Positions 19,461-28,653 of a stretch of DNA of 64,000 nt are shown here, piece after piece. The stretch comes from Thermococcus gorgonarius (GTDB lineage: Archaea > Methanobacteriota_B > Thermococci > Thermococcales > Thermococcaceae), in NCBI RefSeq assembly GCF_002214385.1, contig NZ_CP014855.1, positions 1,178,001 to 1,242,000 on the forward strand, in the 5' to 3' direction. Within the stretch, counting starts at the first letter, position 1; every line of letters starts with the position of its first letter. A program made the translations under genes and the position numbers. The notes beneath the pieces were generated by a model. The model was not told where the DNA came from, did no database searches, and saw nothing but the letters and a program-made list of their open reading frames with translations.

Positions 19461-19608
19461 TTCGGCTTAGACAATCTAGCTCTCTTCTTTTTCCAAAAAC
19501 TCACTTAAAATGGTGAAGCAACATCCAGAAAACTTTATGTATTCCTGGAGGGAGTTATTACGGTTAAGGTCACGGGATCTTTCAACCGTTGAGATTGGGT
19601 GATGTGGC

Positions 19609-20709
19609 GTGAGAGCTTTGATAATAGGGATTGGACAGTGCGGGACTAAAATAGCAGACATCTTTTCCCTCGTGGATTTTGAGAGCCTGGCCATAAACAC
19701 TTCAAGGGGCGACCTAGACTATCTAAAGCACATTCCGCCGGAGAGAAGAATACTGATAGGCGAGAGCCTAACCGGGGGGAAGGGAGTAAACGCCAACCCC
19801 GTTCTGGGGAGAGAGGCCATGAAGCGCGATCTCCCCATGGTCATGAAAAAGATCTCCTCGATCGTGGGTTATGAAGACGTTGATATATTCTTTCTCACAT
19901 TCGGATTTGGCGGTGGAACCGGAGCCGGTGGAACGCCCGTTCTTGCCGAGGCCCTGAAAGAAGAATATCCGGATTCGCTGGTAGTTGCGATAGGGGCACT
20001 ACCCCTAAAGGAAGAAGGGATAAGACCAACGATAAACGCGGCGATAACCATAGATAAGCTTTCAAAAGTTGCCGATTCAATAATCGCCATAGACAACAAC
20101 AAGCTCAAGGAAGGAGATCTGGATATAAGTCAAGCGTACGAGAGGATAAACTACACAATAGTCGAGAGAATAGCATCACTTCTGGCGCTTATAGACGTCC
20201 CGGGAGAACAAACCCTTGACGCAAGCGATCTTAAGTTCGTTCTCAAGGCCTTCGGAAGCTTTGCCACGGTTGGCTATGCCAAGGCCCGGGCCGATCAGGT
20301 GAAAAGCCTCTCAAGGCTTATAACAAGGTCTTTCGAAAGCGAGGGACTCTACCTGGAAGCTAACGTTGAATCCGCCCTCTACGGTCTTGTGGCAATTCAC
20401 GGCCCGCCGGAAGTGCTGAAGGCTAGGGACATATTCGAGGCCCTGGACGAGCTGACCGGGAGGATAAAAGGCAAGCAGATCTTCAGGGGTTTCTACCCGG
20501 ATCCTCGGGAGAGGGATGTTGAGGTTGTGACCCTCTTGAGCGGGATTTACGAGAGCAAAAGCATAGAGGACATAATAATCACGGCAAAGAGGTACGCCAA
20601 GTCCTTCATGAAAGCAAAAGCTGAAGCAGAAGAAAAGAAAAAGACCCTCCTGAATGGACTCCCGGACTTCGATGACATTTACCCGACGGAGGAGGGGATC
20701 GATGGGTGA
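19609..20709 (+). CDS. Tubulin/FtsZ-superfamily GTPase, non-canonical
   Basis: The 366-residue protein has the tubulin signature GGGTGAG at 101-107, the N-terminal GIGQCGTKIAD nucleotide-binding loop, and DASD at 204-207, which corresponds to the catalytic loop that completes the neighbour's GTPase site. It therefore should form GTP-dependent filaments. It is not a classical FtsZ: the tail lacks an FtsZ peptide and ends in a charged coil. GTG 19609 has GGGTGAT upstream. It is the first gene of an operon of membrane and pilin-like proteins, which suggests assembly or positioning of a surface structure rather than cell division. It could also be a CetZ-like shape protein. Confidence 0.88.
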   Translation: MRALIIGIGQCGTKIADIFSLVDFESLAINTSRGDLDYLKHIPPERRILIGESLTGGKGVNANPVLGREAMKRDLPMVMKKISSIVGYEDVDIFFLTFGFGGGTGAGGTPVLAEALKEEYPDSLVVAIGALPLKEEGIRPTINAAITIDKLSKVADSIIAIDNNKLKEGDLDISQAYERINYTIVERIASLLALIDVPGEQTLDASDLKFVLKAFGSFATVGYAKARADQVKSLSRLITRSFESEGLYLEANVESALYGLVAIHGPPEVLKARDIFEALDELTGRIKGKQIFRGFYPDPRERDVEVVTLLSGIYESKSIEDIIITAKRYAKSFMKAKAEAEEKKKTLLNGLPDFDDIYPTEEGIDG

Positions 20710-21313
20710 AATAAGGGACTCCGTGGAAGTTGCCCTAGAGCTGGACGAGAAGGGAGTTTATTCCCACATAGCCGAGGAGAGCGCCGAGGACATCAGGAGA
20801 ATAATATCTTCCATAGACGCCGAGAGGGCCATGAAAAAAGGCTTTAAGGTCTACTACAAAGACGACTGGGACGAACTCATAAGAGAGAGGATAAGGAAAG
20901 GAAAAAGGCACACCGCATTCGACTTCTACAACCCAGCACTCCTGGACATATGGGAAGCAAAGGTCAAGGAGCTCAAGAATGTAAAAAAGGCCGAATATTT
21001 CCTTTACGCATTAATAGGAGCCACGTCCTTATCGTTAATCCTCGCCGGCCTGTACCTCTGGCGGCCCCTGGTGTTAGTGAGCTTAATCCCGCTGCCCCTG
21101 GTGGTGTGGGTCTACGACAGGACGAGGGAAAAAAGGGATCTTATATACCACCAGCTCGCACAGTTCTTCATAGACGAGATGAAAGCCCTCCTAACAAGAC
21201 ATTCCCTCGCCCCGGAGAAGTTCAGCTTTAAAGTCTTCAACGACGACTACTTTGAAGTTAAGACGGTGAAGAAGGGCCTAGAGACAGTTGCGGTTGTCGA
21301 TACATCCAAGTAA
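20702..21313 (+). CDS. Two-helix membrane protein coupled to the FtsZ-like gene
   Basis: The 203-residue protein has about 95 residues of charged cytoplasmic sequence and then two adjoining transmembrane helices (YFLYALIGATSLSLILAGLY and LVLVSLIPLPLVVWVY). A cytoplasmic tail of about 65 residues follows. The ATG overlaps the GTPase stop (ATGGGTGA), so the two are translated together. I know no family. It is a good candidate for the membrane anchor of the tubulin-like filament. Confidence 0.82.
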   Translation: MGEIRDSVEVALELDEKGVYSHIAEESAEDIRRIISSIDAERAMKKGFKVYYKDDWDELIRERIRKGKRHTAFDFYNPALLDIWEAKVKELKNVKKAEYFLYALIGATSLSLILAGLYLWRPLVLVSLIPLPLVVWVYDRTREKRDLIYHQLAQFFIDEMKALLTRHSLAPEKFSFKVFNDDYFEVKTVKKGLETVAVVDTSK

Positions 21314-21376
21314 TGAATTTTCATCATGGACAAGTGTTAAATACACCTAACCTCAAAAACAATGTGAGGGGGAGAG

Positions 21377-21985
21377 ATGAGCAGGAAGGGACAGGTCTCA
21401 CTGGAATTCCTCTTTGTGTTCACGATAATGATTGTTCTTCTAGCTTATTCAATCAACAACGTAACGTTTAGAGAGGGTTCAGCATCTGTTGAAAACCTGA
21501 AGATACAAGTGGCACTTGAGGAGAAGAACCTGGCCAATGCAATCTCAAACACGATAAGCCAGGTCTACGCCCAGGGGCCGGGTTCAAAGGCCACCAGTTA
21601 CATCCACGTAAATTATCTCAAAGATCCGCAGATGCTGGAAAAGGCGACAGGAGTAAAAAGCCCCAGAGTATTTATAACCTACAGAAACGGCACGTTCATA
21701 ACGATTACCGGAACGGGATCTGCCGTGGTCCTCGCAGGGCCGAATAAGAACACCTTCTGGAGTGAATCCATGTATAGGAAGATACTGTCATCCAATAGCT
21801 CAATCTGGTCCCCAAGTGGAAGCGTTAACATGGATTCCACAACGGCATACGGCCTGGAGATAAACCCGAACGACCTGCCCCCAACCCTCAGGATAGTGGT
21901 AGAGTGGAATCCCGATGTACCCGACAGCTGGGAATTCAACTCAACAGCTGGAGAGATCAGGATAAATATAAATCCCGGTGGGTGA
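21377..21985 (+). CDS. Pilin-like protein with class III signal peptide
   Basis: The N terminus RKGQVSLEFLF followed by a hydrophobic helix is the archaeal class III (type IV pilin) signal: cleavage after Gly by a prepilin peptidase and Glu at position +5. The mature part is mostly beta, with Asn-Thr/Ser sites suited to N-glycosylation. It has 202 residues. GAGGGGGAGAG gives a strong ribosome site. A TTAAATA box near 21336 could give this part of the operon its own promoter. It is followed after one base by the next pilin-like gene. Confidence 0.85.
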   Translation: MSRKGQVSLEFLFVFTIMIVLLAYSINNVTFREGSASVENLKIQVALEEKNLANAISNTISQVYAQGPGSKATSYIHVNYLKDPQMLEKATGVKSPRVFITYRNGTFITITGTGSAVVLAGPNKNTFWSESMYRKILSSNSSIWSPSGSVNMDSTTAYGLEINPNDLPPTLRIVVEWNPDVPDSWEFNSTAGEIRININPGG

Positions 21986-21986
21986 A

Positions 21987-22421
21987 ATGAAGAGGGCGCA
22001 GATTACATTCGATTTCCTCATAGCCGTAATGCTCATAACCGTCACAGTTGCGGGGATTGTCTCAATAGCATCCGGTGAGATAGGGAGCGCAAGAATACTC
22101 GACACCACGGCAAAGTTGAAGGCCTTTGCCGTTGATCTGAGGGACACGGCGGTTAAATCGTATTCGGTGGGGACAAACTTCACGATAATCAAGAGCTCCC
22201 CAATCAGACTTTCAAACGGCGACAAAATAACCGTAAAACTCTATTCCAGGAATTCCACAATACTCATCACGGCCGAACTCGGCGGAAAAACTTTCGTTGT
22301 CGGACAGAACGTGCCGGTTCCACTATGTGACTCAAATGTTGAGCTAACGCCCGGGGACGAAAGCTTTAACGTGACTGCAGTCAGCGTTGGGGGGCGGAGC
22401 TGTGTCACAGTTAAGAAATAA
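21987..22421 (+). CDS. Pilin-like protein
   Basis: The N terminus KRAQITFDFLIAVML has basic residues, an Ala-Gln cleavage pair and Asp at +5, then one hydrophobic helix, as in pilins. The mature part is about 120 residues with a Cys pair (CDSNVEL and RSCVTV). ATG 21987 follows GGTGGGTGA and lies one base after the previous stop. Probably a minor subunit of the same surface assembly. Confidence 0.8.
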   Translation: MKRAQITFDFLIAVMLITVTVAGIVSIASGEIGSARILDTTAKLKAFAVDLRDTAVKSYSVGTNFTIIKSSPIRLSNGDKITVKLYSRNSTILITAELGGKTFVVGQNVPVPLCDSNVELTPGDESFNVTAVSVGGRSCVTVKK

Positions 22422-22881
22422 AGCCAGGGCTCAGACCGCCCTTGAGGTGCTGTTCCTGACGGGGATAATCCTCCTGGGGGCGGCGTTAGTGGTGAGGCCG
22501 TACCTTAAGAACAACAGCAGCTCAGAGCTCATACTTCACGTTAGAGGGGCCGCCGAGAGCGCCTGCGCTTATTTAAACACCGGAGTGGTCTTAAAAGACG
22601 AGAAATACACGTCGTTAAACGATGTGATAGTCTCGGCCAACTACTCCTCAATCGGATGCATCGTGAGAGGCGTTGGAATAACACAGGAAGATGAGGGCTC
22701 AGTGTCCATTAAAGTGTCCGTGGAATATCACAAAAACCTTGATCGAGACCAACTCAAAGACGCGATATCTGACTTCATAAAAAGGGAGCTGAAGTCGAGG
22801 AGCGGGTTCACGGAGAAGGATGGGGAACTGTATCACTGGAAGAGGAGAGTTAAGATAGACCTTGAGGTGAGAAAAGAATGA
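22402..22881 (+). CDS. Pilin-like protein
   Basis: The N terminus ARAQTALEVLFLTG again shows an Ala-Gln site with Glu at +5 and a hydrophobic helix. GTG 22402 is preceded by GGGCGGAG and overlaps the previous gene by 20 bases. Two cysteines (SACAY, IGCIV) may form a disulfide. The 159-residue chain ends in a charged helical region. Translational coupling to both neighbours points to a fixed subunit ratio. Confidence 0.8.
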   Translation: MSQLRNKARAQTALEVLFLTGIILLGAALVVRPYLKNNSSSELILHVRGAAESACAYLNTGVVLKDEKYTSLNDVIVSANYSSIGCIVRGVGITQEDEGSVSIKVSVEYHKNLDRDQLKDAISDFIKRELKSRSGFTEKDGELYHWKRRVKIDLEVRKE

Positions 22882-24389
22882 GCGCGAGACGTGCCCAGCT
22901 TCTCTCCCTTGACGCTATGGTTTCCCTCGTGATCGTCATATTTGTGTTCACCACAGTAATAAACACTTCATCCGCCCTAAAGGGAGAGATAACCTCAATG
23001 CTCGGCTGGTACGAGAGGGCCAACATAGCGGACAACATGCTCGACGTTATGGTAAAGACCCCAGGCGAGCCCACCAACTGGTATCAGAACCCTGATTCCG
23101 TTAAAATCGTTGGAATCGGGAGTAACTACTCTCCAACCGGTGCCGACTACAGGCGGGTTAAGGCTTTGGCCCTGAATTTTGATAAACCAGCCGTTTTGAG
23201 CGCTTTAAATAACATGAGCATGGGCAAAGACTTCCTCCTCGAGTTCTACCTCTCGTCCTTCAATGTGAGCATCGATGGTAGATTTCCGATAGTTTACATA
23301 CCAAACATCACGTTCGCAGATAGAAGAGGTACTGGGCTTAGGTTTGACCTTCAGGGGAGCCCCGATGGCAACGACTACTTCTCCGTGAGTTACATTAAGA
23401 TCACTAAAGCAAACGGCAGCGTCTACATAAATGAGAACATAACAGCGCTCAGCAACAATGGACAAAACATCGAAGTAAACCATGGAGACATAATTGAAAT
23501 CGTCACTGCTTCAACCACGTACCTAACGACCACGAGTGCAGATATTCCTCAGGAGCTTTGCAACGAGAAGTATTCCAATAATTCCAATAATAACTGTGTA
23601 ATCGGACCTCTCCCTGAAAACACAAGGATTATAATTTATCTCACGAACCCAGAAAGTAACTTACAGATACAGCTGGAGACAAAGTGGGATTGGAAGCGCA
23701 TCCGCCTGGCTCCCGGACAAGGAAACGTCATCGTCACAGCTTCCGCCTATGACAATGTCACTCCCGAGATCCCCTCCAGCTACACCTTCTACACGAACCT
23801 CATGGAAAAGAAGACGCCCACCTACTGGTTCGCTGTCATCAACGGAACTCCCACCCAGAATAGAAACCTCATCCTCGCCTCCATGGACAGATCACCTTGG
23901 GTAGAGCCCGTTGAGAGAAGGATAACGATAGCTCGCCTCGAGTACAACCTATCCGCAGGGCCGTCAGCAACGGACCCAATGGTTTACGGCCTGCTCACCA
24001 GTCCACTACCTCAGGGTGCTTACCTCTCGGTCAGCACTACCTCCAATACCACTGGAAACGTCACGTTCGTTGCGGTATCAGGTTCACGTTTCCTTGGGCT
24101 GATGGTCTACAGAGACGAGCAGGGGGGCTATCTTAAAGGAGTTCTGATAGGGAACACGACCCCAGGTGTTGTTCGTAGGTTCTACTCTGGAACAAATTCC
24201 TCTATTTTAATACCACTCAAGGACATCTTTGGTGAGGAGAGCAACGTAGTAATAGGTCTGTGGCTCTATTCCCTCGATGGATGGGATAGAAGTGAGGTTT
24301 CCATCGACATCATGCCAAGCATAGAGTGGAGCCTTGAGCCGAAGGCCGAGCAGGCCTTTGTAAAACTAACGGTGTGGGATGACTCATGA
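22878..24389 (+). CDS. Large secreted protein with pilin-like N terminus
   Basis: The 503-residue protein begins RRAQLLSLDAMVSLVIVIFV, a pilin-like basic/hydrophobic start with Asp where the +5/+6 acid sits. The rest is a beta-rich extracellular domain with many N-glycosylation sequons and a Cys pair near 230. It overlaps both neighbours by four bases (ATGA). The LDAM-SLV start is shared with the next gene, suggesting a duplication. Likely a tip or adhesive subunit. Confidence 0.8.
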   Translation: MSARRAQLLSLDAMVSLVIVIFVFTTVINTSSALKGEITSMLGWYERANIADNMLDVMVKTPGEPTNWYQNPDSVKIVGIGSNYSPTGADYRRVKALALNFDKPAVLSALNNMSMGKDFLLEFYLSSFNVSIDGRFPIVYIPNITFADRRGTGLRFDLQGSPDGNDYFSVSYIKITKANGSVYINENITALSNNGQNIEVNHGDIIEIVTASTTYLTTTSADIPQELCNEKYSNNSNNNCVIGPLPENTRIIIYLTNPESNLQIQLETKWDWKRIRLAPGQGNVIVTASAYDNVTPEIPSSYTFYTNLMEKKTPTYWFAVINGTPTQNRNLILASMDRSPWVEPVERRITIARLEYNLSAGPSATDPMVYGLLTSPLPQGAYLSVSTTSNTTGNVTFVAVSGSRFLGLMVYRDEQGGYLKGVLIGNTTPGVVRRFYSGTNSSILIPLKDIFGEESNVVIGLWLYSLDGWDRSEVSIDIMPSIEWSLEPKAEQAFVKLTVWDDS

Positions 24390-26434
24390 GAAGGGGGTTT
24401 GTTTTCACGCTCGATGCAATGCTCTCGCTCGTCCTGGTAACCCTGTTCATAACCAGTATAGTCGCAATAACCAGCAGTACCTCTCAGGTTTACTCCACTT
24501 ACATGAGGTCGCAATCCGAGTACATAGCCACAGACACCCTTGAGACCCTCAGAACGGTCTCACTGAACCAGCTGGTTCCCCCGGAAAAGGTAGATGAGTG
24601 GTTGAATGATGGAACCCTCGATGAAGAACTCGTGAGCCCGGAAATGACCCCCCTTGATATAGTCGCAACCTACTGGGCCACCGAACCCCTGTATCCCTCC
24701 AAAAACCTCAGCCACAAGGCGGAAGTAATCCTCGGCTACATCCTTAATCAGAGGTTGAAAGGATACAACTACGAGCTCCTCATAAACAACTACACGAGCC
24801 CCTACCTGAGGAAAGTTGGTTCTAACTATTCAGAGGCCCCCGACGTCTCCCCGGCCACACTGGTTATGAGCGGCTACGCCTACAACCAGACGCCGAGGGG
24901 ATACATGGCGAGGGCTTATTTGACGAAGGCCACAACGACCCAGGAGAAGCTCTATGGCTGGATGTGGGTTTTAGCTTCTGGAGCCTTATCAAATACCCTA
25001 ACAATCACGAGGATTATAAACTTCCCCTGGGATGCTCAGATACTCGAAGCCGATGGAAAGTTCGTTGCTCGACAGGGAGAAATGGTAACCTTGTATATAA
25101 ATGGTGCGAACGTCAGTAGTTGGCCCGGGCAGATAAACCTGAACAACCTCGCAAACTACCTTGGGCCCGGTCCAAACAACATAACCCTCGTCTATTCAAA
25201 TGCCCAAGGGGATGAAATAGGTTCCGGCAGCGGCACTACCATGTACGTTAAATATAAAACTGACAGCCCTCTGGTTGAGGATCCGGGTTTGTTTGAGGTT
25301 TATGACGTTACATCAGAGAGAACAGGCTTTATGTACCTCTTTGAGCTCTTTGTCCCGGGAAACATAAGTAGCATCAATATGAAGTTTAAGATCCGTAACG
25401 TTAGTACCGTTAGGCTTTACTATGGTCTGGGAGGCAATTTGACCCTTCTGCTGACCAAATCCGCCAACTCCAGCGGGGATGCAGTTGTCAGTTTTACCGA
25501 CCAGGAGATAAAAGGTGCCCTCAGCAACCTCGGCGTTTCGTACTCAAATTTAAGTAAGATGGTCTTTGATTTCGTGGTTGGCTTCGATGCATATTACGAG
25601 AATGAAAAGTGGTATTACGAAGGTGGTGACTACTACAACGACGGTGCTGATCGTGAGAGAAGATTGTACGGGTATCCGGACTCGTACGTCCGCATAACCT
25701 ATACAACCCCCGTTTCCGTTACTCTCTATTCGATTCCTCTCTCGGTGTATTTCCCCTACGGCGACAACAGAGTGACATATGATGGCAATGGACTGCAGGT
25801 CAGGTATAGCCTTCCTCCCCGCGTTCAGCCGTGGTACGCCGACTGGTGGGTTGGATACATCTTTGAGGGTTCCACTACTCAGGTTTTATCTGAGAACGGA
25901 AGGGAATTCTACAGGGGGCCCCTCGGTAGGTACGCTATCCGCGTTGCCTACACCAGACTCTACGACTGGATGATGGTTCCGGGGCAGGAGAACTCCTTTG
26001 AGATAAGCATGGAGAACGGAAATTCCTACATCAGAGATTATGAAACCCGCGGGATTATCTACTACTTCCTCAAGGCCTATGCAGGTTACGGAGATGTCTT
26101 CAAAAAGTTCATGCGTCCCGGGTGCAAGGGATACAACATAACTTACTACTGGCAGGACAGTTCAGTGGCCACGCCACAGCAGGCTTACATCCTTGCTGGA
26201 GACGCACCCTACTGTGATGTTACCACTGAACAACTCTTGGCCAACAGGAGTACTTACGCCGTTGATGACGCAATAATAAGGCTTTTCAACAACCTCGGCG
26301 GCGATGGCACCCGGAGCAGTCCCATACTCGTAAAGCTCCCAAATGAGGGGAATATAGACTTCGCCTCGATGGGCAACATACCAGGCCTCTTCCAGCCCAT
26401 CCAGATAACGTTAAGGGTGTGGAGGGAAGGATAA
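24386..26434 (+). CDS. Large secreted protein with pilin-like N terminus
   Basis: At 682 residues this is the largest product of the operon. It begins RRGFVFTLDAMLSLVLV, one hydrophobic helix that would anchor it, followed by a long extracellular region rich in Tyr, Asn, Gly and Ser with many sequons. Two late cysteines (RPGCKGY and PYCDV) may pair. It overlaps the previous gene by four bases and the next by one. I recognise no enzymatic domain. An adhesin-like role is plausible. Confidence 0.8.
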   Translation: MRRGFVFTLDAMLSLVLVTLFITSIVAITSSTSQVYSTYMRSQSEYIATDTLETLRTVSLNQLVPPEKVDEWLNDGTLDEELVSPEMTPLDIVATYWATEPLYPSKNLSHKAEVILGYILNQRLKGYNYELLINNYTSPYLRKVGSNYSEAPDVSPATLVMSGYAYNQTPRGYMARAYLTKATTTQEKLYGWMWVLASGALSNTLTITRIINFPWDAQILEADGKFVARQGEMVTLYINGANVSSWPGQINLNNLANYLGPGPNNITLVYSNAQGDEIGSGSGTTMYVKYKTDSPLVEDPGLFEVYDVTSERTGFMYLFELFVPGNISSINMKFKIRNVSTVRLYYGLGGNLTLLLTKSANSSGDAVVSFTDQEIKGALSNLGVSYSNLSKMVFDFVVGFDAYYENEKWYYEGGDYYNDGADRERRLYGYPDSYVRITYTTPVSVTLYSIPLSVYFPYGDNRVTYDGNGLQVRYSLPPRVQPWYADWWVGYIFEGSTTQVLSENGREFYRGPLGRYAIRVAYTRLYDWMMVPGQENSFEISMENGNSYIRDYETRGIIYYFLKAYAGYGDVFKKFMRPGCKGYNITYYWQDSSVATPQQAYILAGDAPYCDVTTEQLLANRSTYAVDDAIIRLFNNLGGDGTRSSPILVKLPNEGNIDFASMGNIPGLFQPIQITLRVWREG

Positions 26435-27876
26435 TGAAAAGGAGGGGCTTTTTACTGAATTCGGCCACTCTTATTCTTATTATTCCGCTCCTTCTCCTTC
26501 TGGCGACGTACGAGGACATTTCATCCCAGATCATGACTGCCCAGAGCGAGAGGAGCCAGCTGGAGAGAACATACGATGTGGTATCGTTTCTCAATCTTGA
26601 GTTCCAGAAAGCCCTCGAGATTTCAGGAAAGAGGGCCGTAGTTGCGGCCGTTGATTACGTTGCAACGACGAGGAACTTCATAACAGACGACATGGCAAAC
26701 AACACGATAGCCGATTTAATACTCAACGGTAATTCTCCTTCAATAAGAAACTACGACCTGGATAGAATTATGAAAGGCCAAACCCTCAGAACATGGTTCT
26801 CCAACCTTAGCCCCCTCCTGCTGGAGCAGGGCTACATTCTGTCCGGGGATATCTCAAAAGCGGACATCACAGTTGCACTGCTTGACGCGTTTACAATTGT
26901 CATTAAGGCGAAGATCCCCCAGGTGACAGTTAAGGACTTATCGGGTAAAGTCGTTTACAACGGCCAGATTCCTTCAAACGGCGGCTACATTTACTCAACC
27001 GTTGACCTCCGCGGCCTTGAGGACCCGATGTTTTCGGCAGTTACCGGAGGGGAATATCAGAGATCACTCCAGGCATGCCAGTATCCCTATCCCGAATTCG
27101 GTATGAGGCCCGTCATATGGGCCAACGGCTCGGGGTCTTCAAACGTTAACTATTTAGTGGGAAGATTTGGCACGGACTTCTGGTACAGCTCCACACATAT
27201 CTGGGACAAGAATGATCCAAAAAATTACATAACCAACCTAACAATGGATGGAGTTCCGGTTAAAACAGATTCACTCATCTTCCACAACGGTGATCTCGGA
27301 GTGCTCCTGTTCCCGGAGGTTTCACGTGGCTCCAATACAGGTTCAACTGCCCCGAAGGCCAGTGCCTACAACATCGAACCCCTTATGCTCTGCATCAACG
27401 AGATGGAGCGCGTTGGGGACATTGCCGGGGACATACGGTACATAGCAGTTCCATGGGGAATGTCTTTCTTTGAGAGACTTGAGGGCAGTGATCGGAACCA
27501 TGACACCTACGTACAGCTTGCCGAGAAGATGCAGGACGAGATGGGTATCAGCTACGGCGATAAGCACTATCCCATCGGACTTGTCAGTTTTATGGTGCCA
27601 ACACATAGTGGACAGGCCTTCGATGAAAAGCTCAACAAGCTGTTCTCAGTGGTTCTCCAAAGGCGTCCAGATGAAAACGTGAACAGCGTAGACTATTGCT
27701 TCCTCGCTCACTATTTCCCAGAAAAACTCACAATTACCCAGAACTTGTGCAACAAGGAAGTTTACAGGGTGTACGGCATTTCCGATTCTCCCGACAGGAA
27801 GAACGTGTACTTCTTCTTGGACGAGCAAACCGCCGAATACATAATGGGCACATCAGACCTCCTCCAGATAGGGTGA
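26434..27876 (+). CDS. Secreted protein with pilin-like N terminus
   Basis: The ATG at 26434 shares a base with the previous stop (TAATG). The chain of 480 residues begins MKRRGFLLNSATLILIIPLL, again basic then hydrophobic, without the +5 acid. A helical stalk follows (residues 30-100), then a beta-rich domain with four cysteines. No family is recognised. It seems to be the sixth consecutive exported protein of this operon. Confidence 0.8.
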   Translation: MKRRGFLLNSATLILIIPLLLLLATYEDISSQIMTAQSERSQLERTYDVVSFLNLEFQKALEISGKRAVVAAVDYVATTRNFITDDMANNTIADLILNGNSPSIRNYDLDRIMKGQTLRTWFSNLSPLLLEQGYILSGDISKADITVALLDAFTIVIKAKIPQVTVKDLSGKVVYNGQIPSNGGYIYSTVDLRGLEDPMFSAVTGGEYQRSLQACQYPYPEFGMRPVIWANGSGSSNVNYLVGRFGTDFWYSSTHIWDKNDPKNYITNLTMDGVPVKTDSLIFHNGDLGVLLFPEVSRGSNTGSTAPKASAYNIEPLMLCINEMERVGDIAGDIRYIAVPWGMSFFERLEGSDRNHDTYVQLAEKMQDEMGISYGDKHYPIGLVSFMVPTHSGQAFDEKLNKLFSVVLQRRPDENVNSVDYCFLAHYFPEKLTITQNLCNKEVYRVYGISDSPDRKNVYFFLDEQTAEYIMGTSDLLQIG

Positions 27877-27888
27877 AGAGGTGAAATC

Positions 27889-28653
27889 ATGGCGCTTGAT
27901 GAAGTTCTTTACTCACTGGGGGAAGCTACGGAGGCACTCGTTTCAAGGATAGGTAATACGATAAAGGACATAGCGTTTCCGGAGAAAACAGAAAGACCAC
28001 CAGAATTCAAATTCCTGAAAAAGCTCGTAAAAAAAGACTTCACCCCACACGAGTTCATTAGCCTCAAACTTCAGCTCGTTTTCCTGACTTATCTCGTCCT
28101 CTCACTACTTACAGCCGTTTCACTGAAGAGCCACGCATACCTTTCCCTCCTGTTCATCGTGGAGCTCCTTTATATACGGTACATCATAAGGAAGACCTGG
28201 GACTTCATAATAAACCCCGGGGCATACCGCTTTTTCTATTACGGGATATCCACCCTGGCTTTCCTCTCCTTTGAGGGGTACCTGGTTCTCAGAGAGCTGA
28301 AACCCGAGGTCTATTATTACTATGCATACCTGATGGTAATCCTGGCAATCGTCCTAATCTTCCGCTGGTACTTCAAGAGAAAATTCGGCAGGGACTACAC
28401 TTACGGCGTTGTGGAGGAGGTGAAGAATGACCTCGTCAGGGTTTTCATCCACGACGACATAGCGGCCAACGTCAAGCCCGGTTATTACTGGCTCCCTGAA
28501 GTAGAGGATGCCAAACCCGGGCGCGTCGTCAAAATTCTCATCGAGGATAGGGCATTTAGAAGCGCGAAGCCTCTCAGAATCCTCGAGGTGTATTTAGAGG
28601 ACACGGGTCAGTCCTCCCAGACGGAGACGGAACCAAAGGAAGAAATCGAGTAG
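27889..28653 (+). CDS. Polytopic membrane protein, DUF2101-like
   Basis: The 254-residue protein has a soluble N-terminal helix region, then about four or five transmembrane helices (residues 65-160), and a cytoplasmic beta-rich tail. It resembles the Thermococcales family that I recall as DUF2101, of unknown function. It follows the pilin-like genes by 12 bases and GAGGTG precedes its ATG. By position it could be the inner-membrane platform of the assembly, although it shows no similarity to TadC/ArlJ that I can see. Confidence 0.75.
   Translation: MALDEVLYSLGEATEALVSRIGNTIKDIAFPEKTERPPEFKFLKKLVKKDFTPHEFISLKLQLVFLTYLVLSLLTAVSLKSHAYLSLLFIVELLYIRYIIRKTWDFIINPGAYRFFYYGISTLAFLSFEGYLVLRELKPEVYYYYAYLMVILAIVLIFRWYFKRKFGRDYTYGVVEEVKNDLVRVFIHDDIAANVKPGYYWLPEVEDAKPGRVVKILIEDRAFRSAKPLRILEVYLEDTGQSSQTETEPKEEIE

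Follow-up and report, generated by a model that had tools for sequence, protein, structure and literature searches.

The locus examined here raises the question of what a tubulin-superfamily GTPase does in the same set of genes as several pilin-like exported proteins. In the window, which is the whole stretch of 64,000 nucleotides of Thermococcus gorgonarius DNA that was analyzed, nine closely packed genes, all on the plus strand, occupy positions 19609–28653. The positions of the GTPase, the membrane protein, the six exported open reading frames and the polytopic (DUF2101) protein listed in a preliminary description were confirmed by inspection of the reading frames, and the nine genes look like a single operon:

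Gene A (cetZ), 19609..20709, plus strand: tubulin-superfamily GTPase of 366 aa with a conserved C-terminal peptide (LLNGLPDFDDIYP)
Gene B, 20702..21313, plus strand: 203 aa; a long helix on the cytosolic side at the N-terminus, then a predicted membrane hairpin and a C-terminal domain in the cytosol; candidate membrane adaptor for CetZ
Gene C, 21377..21985, plus strand: class III signal peptide protein of 202 aa, probable minor pilin; motif RKG|QVSLEF kept in orthologs
Gene D, 21978..22421, plus strand: 147 aa, pilin-type start KRA|QITFDF, probable minor pilin
Gene E, 22402..22881, plus strand: about 159 aa from GTG 22402 (the reading frame opens with TTG 22387), pilin-type start ARA|QTALEV, probable minor pilin
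Gene F, 22878..24389, plus strand: 503 aa, pilin-type start RRA|QLLSLD, large exported domain
Gene G, 24386..26434, plus strand: 682 aa, pilin-type start RRG|FVFTLD, helix followed by a beta-rich domain
Gene H, 26434..27876, plus strand: 480 aa, atypical start KRRG|FLLNS, short form of a protein with DUF2341 in most relatives; candidate tip protein
Gene I, 27889..28653, plus strand: DUF2101 polytopic membrane protein of 254 aa (Pfam DUF2101, 1e-80)

Conservation and published record of the cluster

Gene B starts at ATG 20702, after AGGAGGGG, and overlaps the end of cetZ by 8 bases, which is consistent with the translational coupling previously suggested for the GTPase and the membrane protein; an ATGA overlap joins genes E and F. 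Genes B and C are separated by 63 bases, in which a second promoter could sit. The preliminary description had made its reading depend on the gene order being kept in related species, and the same order was indeed found in all 19 loci compared, from relatives in six genera, so that the cluster goes beyond a chance association. Mean identity among orthologs was 85% for A and 58% for B (cytosolic) versus 35–49% for the exported C–H. The DUF2101 family of gene I was restricted to Thermococcales within the phylum, and was found in 0 of 14 control genomes.

The system had been supposed not to have been described before; the CetZ-pilin association in Thermococcales is, however, already known. An FtsZ-family GTPase in the clade 1 pilus loci of Thermococci was published by Makarova 2016 (PMC4858521), who credit Szabo 2007, and Brown & Duggin 2023 (PMC9856176) named the GTPase CetZ and reported its linkage to pilins in all the Thermococcales regions analyzed (15). 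The operon in the window is essentially the same as the latter cluster (arCOG05786-05790, 03821, 03822), with a single CetZ, pilin-family genes and a conserved order, save for the missing upstream cyclase-fold gene and the missing DUF2341 of gene H. In most relatives a secreted cyclase-fold protein is encoded directly upstream of cetZ, and its absence in T. gorgonarius corresponds to a loss in that lineage.

CetZ and its membrane partner

The product of gene A carries the motifs GFGGGTGAGG and TLDASDLK and matched the Pfam families Tubulin (1e-30) and CetZ_C (1.2e-14), both above cut-off; with the CetZ C-terminal domain model PF21011 it scored 54.6 bits (cut-off 21.6). The nearest solved structures were CetZ1, CetZ2 and M. 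thermophila CetZ. The possibility that gene A encodes a divergent cell-division FtsZ would agree with the shared superfamily and with about 30% identity to the FtsZ of the same genome, but it appears very improbable: the score with the FtsZ equivalog TIGR00065 (122.9 bits) was far under the cut-off of 295.2, two canonical FtsZ genes are already present elsewhere in the T. gorgonarius genome, and the tree places gene A with CetZ. In the latter, the FtsZ rows were split from the CetZ plus Thermococcales rows with 100/100 support, while the placement relative to M. thermophila CetZ was blurred by long branches. Gene A is thus a CetZ rather than an FtsZ, which bears out the initial view of the GTPase as not a standard FtsZ, and the phylogeny among FtsZ and CetZ families proposed as a check at that time gave the same answer.

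The C-terminal tail motif GLPDFDD was found in 39 of the 39 loci examined. Of 94 Thermococcales genomes, 89 have both CetZ and gene B, and the other five, all of them fragmented assemblies, have neither; the partnership of the two is exclusive and obligate. The cytosolic N-terminal part of gene B is strongly conserved. The AF2 model of gene B had a mean pLDDT of 78.8, and no PDB structure with a matching fold came up at E ≤ 0.001. A weak gene B hit (E 3.6e-4) in a different family of the class lay on a contig without CetZ or the other operon genes. Gene B is considered a candidate Thermococcales membrane adaptor for CetZ, to which CetZ may bind. A peptide conserved beyond the GTPase core together with a membrane partner recalls FtsZ and its adaptors (FtsA, SepF, ZipA), by analogy of working only: the CetZ tail sequence differs, and no likeness of gene B to any adaptor was found.

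Exported proteins and the pilus machinery of the genome

Genes C, D and E show canonical class III starts (R/K-G/A|Q...E/D at +5), and in F and G the acidic residue is at +6. Gene C matched Pfam Class_IIIsignal with 25.6 bits, above cut-off; gene E, with 18.2 bits, was under the cut-off of 23.7, and its start motif is also present in orthologs. Q8 and D12 of gene D are invariant in 16 orthologs. Class III signal peptide pilins, a mark of the clade 1 pilus, are hence found in the locus. In gene H the start KRRG|F precedes a hydrophobic stretch, and an acidic residue was found in 0 of 20 orthologs, so that the six pilin-type exported proteins described initially become five clear ones (C–G) and an atypical one. 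Pilin-type starts alone are not proof of filament assembly. The AF2 model of gene G (pLDDT 84.2) showed a helix at 10-57 and was beta-rich thereafter; Foldseek matched it only locally, to BcsB and other beta-sandwich proteins (whole-chain TM ~0.14), and the fold was dropped as a clue to function. A likeness of the operon proteins to DUF7287/DUF7288 was likewise discarded, the Pfam matches being weak, below cut-off and in few orthologs.

DUF2341, assigned by Makarova 2016 to PilY-like tip adhesins (PMC4858521), was found in 17 of 19 gene H orthologs and not in the window copy; a whole-genome search did not find it, and hence a PilY-like tip protein carrying it, anywhere in T. gorgonarius. The domain appears to have been lost in this lineage and is a usual, not a strict, feature of the clade 1 pilus; therefore the claim made below is that the operon works within such a pilus, not that the full set of clade features is present. 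The N-terminus of P. furiosus PF1304, a protein detected extracellularly (PMC3824201), matches gene H, of which PF1304 is likely the ortholog.

The statement that no PilB/ArlI ATPase is present was correct for the operon and incorrect for the genome. A single PilB (674 aa) and two TadC genes, as in the clade 1 pilus, are encoded unlinked, 360 kb away, with no pilins adjoining; this was the only strong PilB in the whole-genome search, and no overlooked local ATPase was found in the operon. The clade 1 placement of the ATPase is taken from Makarova 2016 for Thermococci (PMC4858521). Among 40 genomes the pilin locus and PilB were never adjacent (minimum 31 kb, median 253 kb), and the cetZ-pilB adjacency in relatives that the wording of both papers could suggest was not seen. 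An EppA-type prepilin peptidase gene lies at 993-995 kb (Arc_PepC, 101 bits; cut-off 23.4), accompanied by that of a short class III protein, and short stand-alone class III pilins are encoded elsewhere. Since the genome gave no archaellin (PF01917) and no ArlI-type match, PilB is left as the one plausible motor that the searches turned up. The link of C–H to PilB rests on elimination, because the two loci are never adjacent, and we infer that these pilins use the unlinked PilB.

Class III minor pilins, EppA, PilB with two TadC, and short stand-alone pilins are shared with the archaeal type IV pilus of clade 1 (PMC4858521), represented by the Epd pilus of Methanococcus maripaludis, and the DUF2341 protein is shared by the relatives only. 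In contrast to that system, the pilin operon and motor locus of T. gorgonarius are unlinked, and CetZ and gene B are additional. The halobacterial cetZ2-pilB2/C2 locus (subclade 4F) likewise has a CetZ next to a type IV pilus cluster, but there cetZ2 is divergent from the cluster, the motor genes lie inside it, and the B–I families of Thermococcales are not detectable. A common origin was rejected, as B–I profiles run against 48 CetZ2 loci with flanks of up to 10 kb recovered only CetZ at E ≤ 10; this lack of similarity to the halobacterial pilus proteins speaks against the function proposed below.

Proposed function

The reading that we favor, with an even chance of being correct, is that the operon supplies the minor pilins and the tip protein of the known clade 1 type IV pilus, and that CetZ, tethered to the membrane, acts as an organizer. 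C–G, with H at the tip, would initiate and cap the pilus, the shaft of which would be built from the short stand-alone class III pilins after processing by the unlinked EppA-type peptidase; the single PilB and the two TadC platform proteins would push the pilins out. CetZ would assemble in the cytoplasm as a polymer or patch that gene B holds at the membrane by way of the conserved C-terminal CetZ peptide, and may set the location or number of pilus platforms. If the pilus of Methanococcus maripaludis is taken as a guide, adhesion or DNA uptake would be the most probable output: a transformation screen in that species yielded eppA and a DUF2341 gene along with genes of the type IV pilus. Some Thermococcales are naturally competent. 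A bolder version, put forward only tentatively, sees CetZ as a dedicated pilus-positioning cytoskeleton: the invariant GLPDFDD tail would attach to gene B, a membrane adaptor specific to Thermococcales, at its cytosolic domain, and the resulting patch of CetZ and B would recruit the minor-pilin complex or gate it, perhaps in the service of DNA uptake; if true, a tubulin-family polymer would organize a type IV filament directly.

CetZ might instead be a general scaffold for cell shape or envelope synthesis; the pilin genes would then be co-transcribed because they too serve the envelope, and nothing mechanical would tie CetZ directly to a pilus. In Haloferax, CetZ1 has been implicated in cell shape, metabolic CetZ neighbors are also known (PMC9856176), and CetZ is much better conserved than the exported genes; a dedicated cluster of CetZ, membrane protein and pilins, in the same order in all examined loci, nevertheless exceeds a loose neighborhood, and we regard this explanation as unlikely, if worth keeping in mind. 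The original idea, that the six exported proteins form a short pseudopilus or secretion device of their own, organized by CetZ and either ATPase-free or using a shared ATPase, we hold to be unlikely. The lack of a motor gene in the operon or beside cetZ in relatives, the exported domains of F, G and H, very large for pilins, and the secreted protein upstream of cetZ in most relatives are in its favor; but the genome already encodes a motor, a peptidase and short pilins, and no pilins accompany the motor locus, so that no separate machine is needed and the missing ATPase does not imply a new surface-fiber or secretion system. Haloferax CetZ1 is also linked to motility (PMC9856176), and a service to the archaellum was considered; in T. 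gorgonarius, which keeps the operon with neither archaellin nor ArlI-type ATPase, that role was rejected as extremely improbable.

Beyond the published accounts found, the results add the invariant CetZ tail, the obligate partner B as candidate adaptor, the apparent losses of DUF2341 and of the upstream secreted protein in the T. gorgonarius lineage, and PF1304 as likely gene H ortholog. Haloferax has six CetZ. Thermococcales, with one CetZ and the same operon partners in every examined locus, thus offer a clean place to ask what CetZ does, and the genetics of T. kodakarensis makes its relation to the pilus testable. If CetZ positions the type IV pilus, a tubulin cytoskeleton would have a direct role in the building of a surface filament.

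The cetZ operon and its conservation

The open reading frames reported in the preliminary description were borne out by an ORF check of the window (bases 1178001–1242000 of contig 1, the single contig of the 1,674,122-base genome). Both the relatives at order level and the gene cluster already published assign this genome to Thermococcales. The genes considered here are located as follows:

Window 19609–28653, + strand: nine genes, A (cetZ), B (membrane protein), C to H (exported proteins, candidate minor pilins) and I (DUF2101)
1,558,141: single strong secretion ATPase (PilB), preceded by a DUF515 membrane protein and followed by two TadC platform proteins
About 928.6, 993.4 and 1,261.4 kb: stand-alone short class III pilins, one adjoining an EppA-type peptidase

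Genes A to I overlap or almost touch. A and B share 8 bases, with AGGAGGGG immediately 5′ of the gene B ATG, B and C are separated by 63 bases, overlaps of 1–20 bases were found at C/D, D/E, E/F, F/G and G/H, and H and I are spaced by 12 bases. From this spacing we infer that the nine genes would form a single transcript.

Gene A showed Pfam Tubulin and CetZ_C matches, both above the cut-off, and scored 122.9 bits against the FtsZ model (cut-off 295.2 bits). Its nearest solved structures were 4b46, 4b45 and 3zid, which we take to be haloarchaeal CetZ1, CetZ2 and the M. thermophila CetZ, respectively (names partly via Brown & Duggin). A small tree separated FtsZ from the CetZ and Thermococcales sequences with full support, although it did not place the fast M. 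thermophila sequence. These results identify gene A as a CetZ, in agreement with the conclusion of Brown & Duggin 2023 for Thermococcales (PMC9856176) and with the initial view that the GTPase is not a standard FtsZ. Two further tubulin-superfamily genes of this genome are both of the ordinary FtsZ type.

Orthologs of cetZ (81–96% identity) were found in 89 of the 94 genomes of the order, and the CetZ_C model matched the same 89 genomes and nothing else in the phylum. Gene B was present in exactly these genomes and absent from the same five, all of them fragmented assemblies; within the phylum, DUF2101 was restricted to Thermococcales. All 19 loci compared, which represent six genera, keep the order A-B-C-D-E-F-G-H-I, although in a few of them tblastn did not detect D or E, confirming that the operon first recognized from raw sequence is real and strongly conserved in related species. 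Mean pairwise identity was 85% for CetZ, 58% for B and 35–49% for the exported C to H. In one genome (G008, contig C1) the DUF2101 match and cetZ lie on opposite strands, about 35 kb apart, which points to either a local rearrangement or a paralog.

Exported proteins and the secretion motor

Canonical class III starts were found in C, D and E, and in F and G the acidic residue stands one position later. H carries KRRGF and, after it, N and a leucine-rich stretch, and the acidic residue was absent in every ortholog examined. GspK, the tip pseudopilin of type II secretion, likewise lacks this residue, and by analogy a tip position would fit H. P. furiosus PF1304 (93.7 kDa; N-terminus published as MRRG/FIINSTLLILIIPLLLLAATYAEI) matches the H family at its N-terminus, and by N-terminus and size it would be a family member. 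Nine unique peptides of PF1304 were identified in culture supernatant (PMC3824201).

DUF2341, the basis for the PilY-like tip adhesins proposed in the clade-1 pilus class (Makarova 2016, PMC4858521), was present in H of 17 of the 19 orthologs; it was missing from H of T. gorgonarius and of its closest relative, and none was found anywhere in the T. gorgonarius genome. Directly upstream of cetZ, 18 of 20 genomes encode a protein of about 700–750 aa that has an N-terminus of the secretion type and contains squalene-hopene cyclase-like repeats (for example, loci L039:14067–16292 and L055:783–3038), noted by Makarova 2016 as arCOG03396 (PMC4858521). No such gene lies at cetZ in T. gorgonarius (window 19461–19608) or its closest relative, so both modules are missing in these two genomes. 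Another genome (L051) has a short H, yet the upstream protein is present. The L039 upstream protein also matched an A-macroglobulin thioester domain.

No pilin genes were found at the PilB/TadC locus, and neither an archaellin nor an ArlI-type ATPase was found in the T. gorgonarius genome. Across 40 genomes in which a single contig carries cetZ and PilB, the two genes were at least 31 kb apart (median 253 kb; some genome lengths rounded). Since no other strong secretion ATPase is present, by elimination the pilin-type proteins C to H most likely use the PilB at 1,558,141. The earlier statement that a PilB/ArlI ATPase is lacking thus holds for the operon, which contains no motor gene, but not for the genome.

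The PilB ATPases of many Thermococcales are in open frames of about 1,100–1,200 aa in which the model match ends at position 238, which suggests inteins; that of T. gorgonarius has 674 aa and no intein. A small contig (G063, C403) carries two T2SSE matches of unusual strength (E ~1e-140), which look like contamination of that assembly.

The CetZ tail and gene B

Near the CetZ C-terminus, past the GTPase core, GLPDFDD was present in all 39 loci read, which include a few from one genome taken twice; among twenty aligned orthologs, one (L050) showed GLPDFED. In contrast, halobacterial CetZ2 has another C-terminal end, with DDxLExLF-type peptides. In gene B the cytosolic N-terminal segment, which contains KGKRHTAFDFYNP, is strongly conserved; it is followed by a predicted membrane hairpin and a cytosolic end. 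The AlphaFold model of the gene B protein was helical, of moderate confidence, and had no PDB relatives. The CetZ tail and gene B look like a candidate polymer-adaptor pair, a possible tether. In their main text, Brown & Duggin (PMC9856176) describe the tail of halobacterial CetZ1/2 as negatively charged and mention no adaptor.

In G096, which belongs to a different taxonomic family within the same class, a protein on contig C140 (L122:6135–6836, − strand) weakly resembles gene B in its hairpin and C-terminal region (E 3.6e-4). That contig carries neither CetZ nor another operon gene; the protein is possibly a distant relative.

Function and relation to earlier work

The system was initially regarded as not described before, but the association of CetZ with pilins is already known (Makarova 2016, PMC4858521; Brown & Duggin 2023, PMC9856176), and a role of CetZ as scaffold for pilus assembly was proposed in the latter study. 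In Methanococcus maripaludis a related pilus is required for DNA uptake, and the transformation screen in that species recovered eppA, a gene with DUF2341 and one for a MinD-like ATPase; the same source counts T. kodakarensis and P. furiosus among naturally competent archaea (PMC10133366). By analogy with the M. maripaludis pilus, DNA uptake or adhesion would be a reasonable output of the operon. The present analysis adds a wider census, the consistent separation of the pilin and motor loci, a conserved CetZ tail, an obligate membrane partner, two extracellular modules absent in the T. gorgonarius lineage, and a link between gene H and a P. furiosus extracellular protein.
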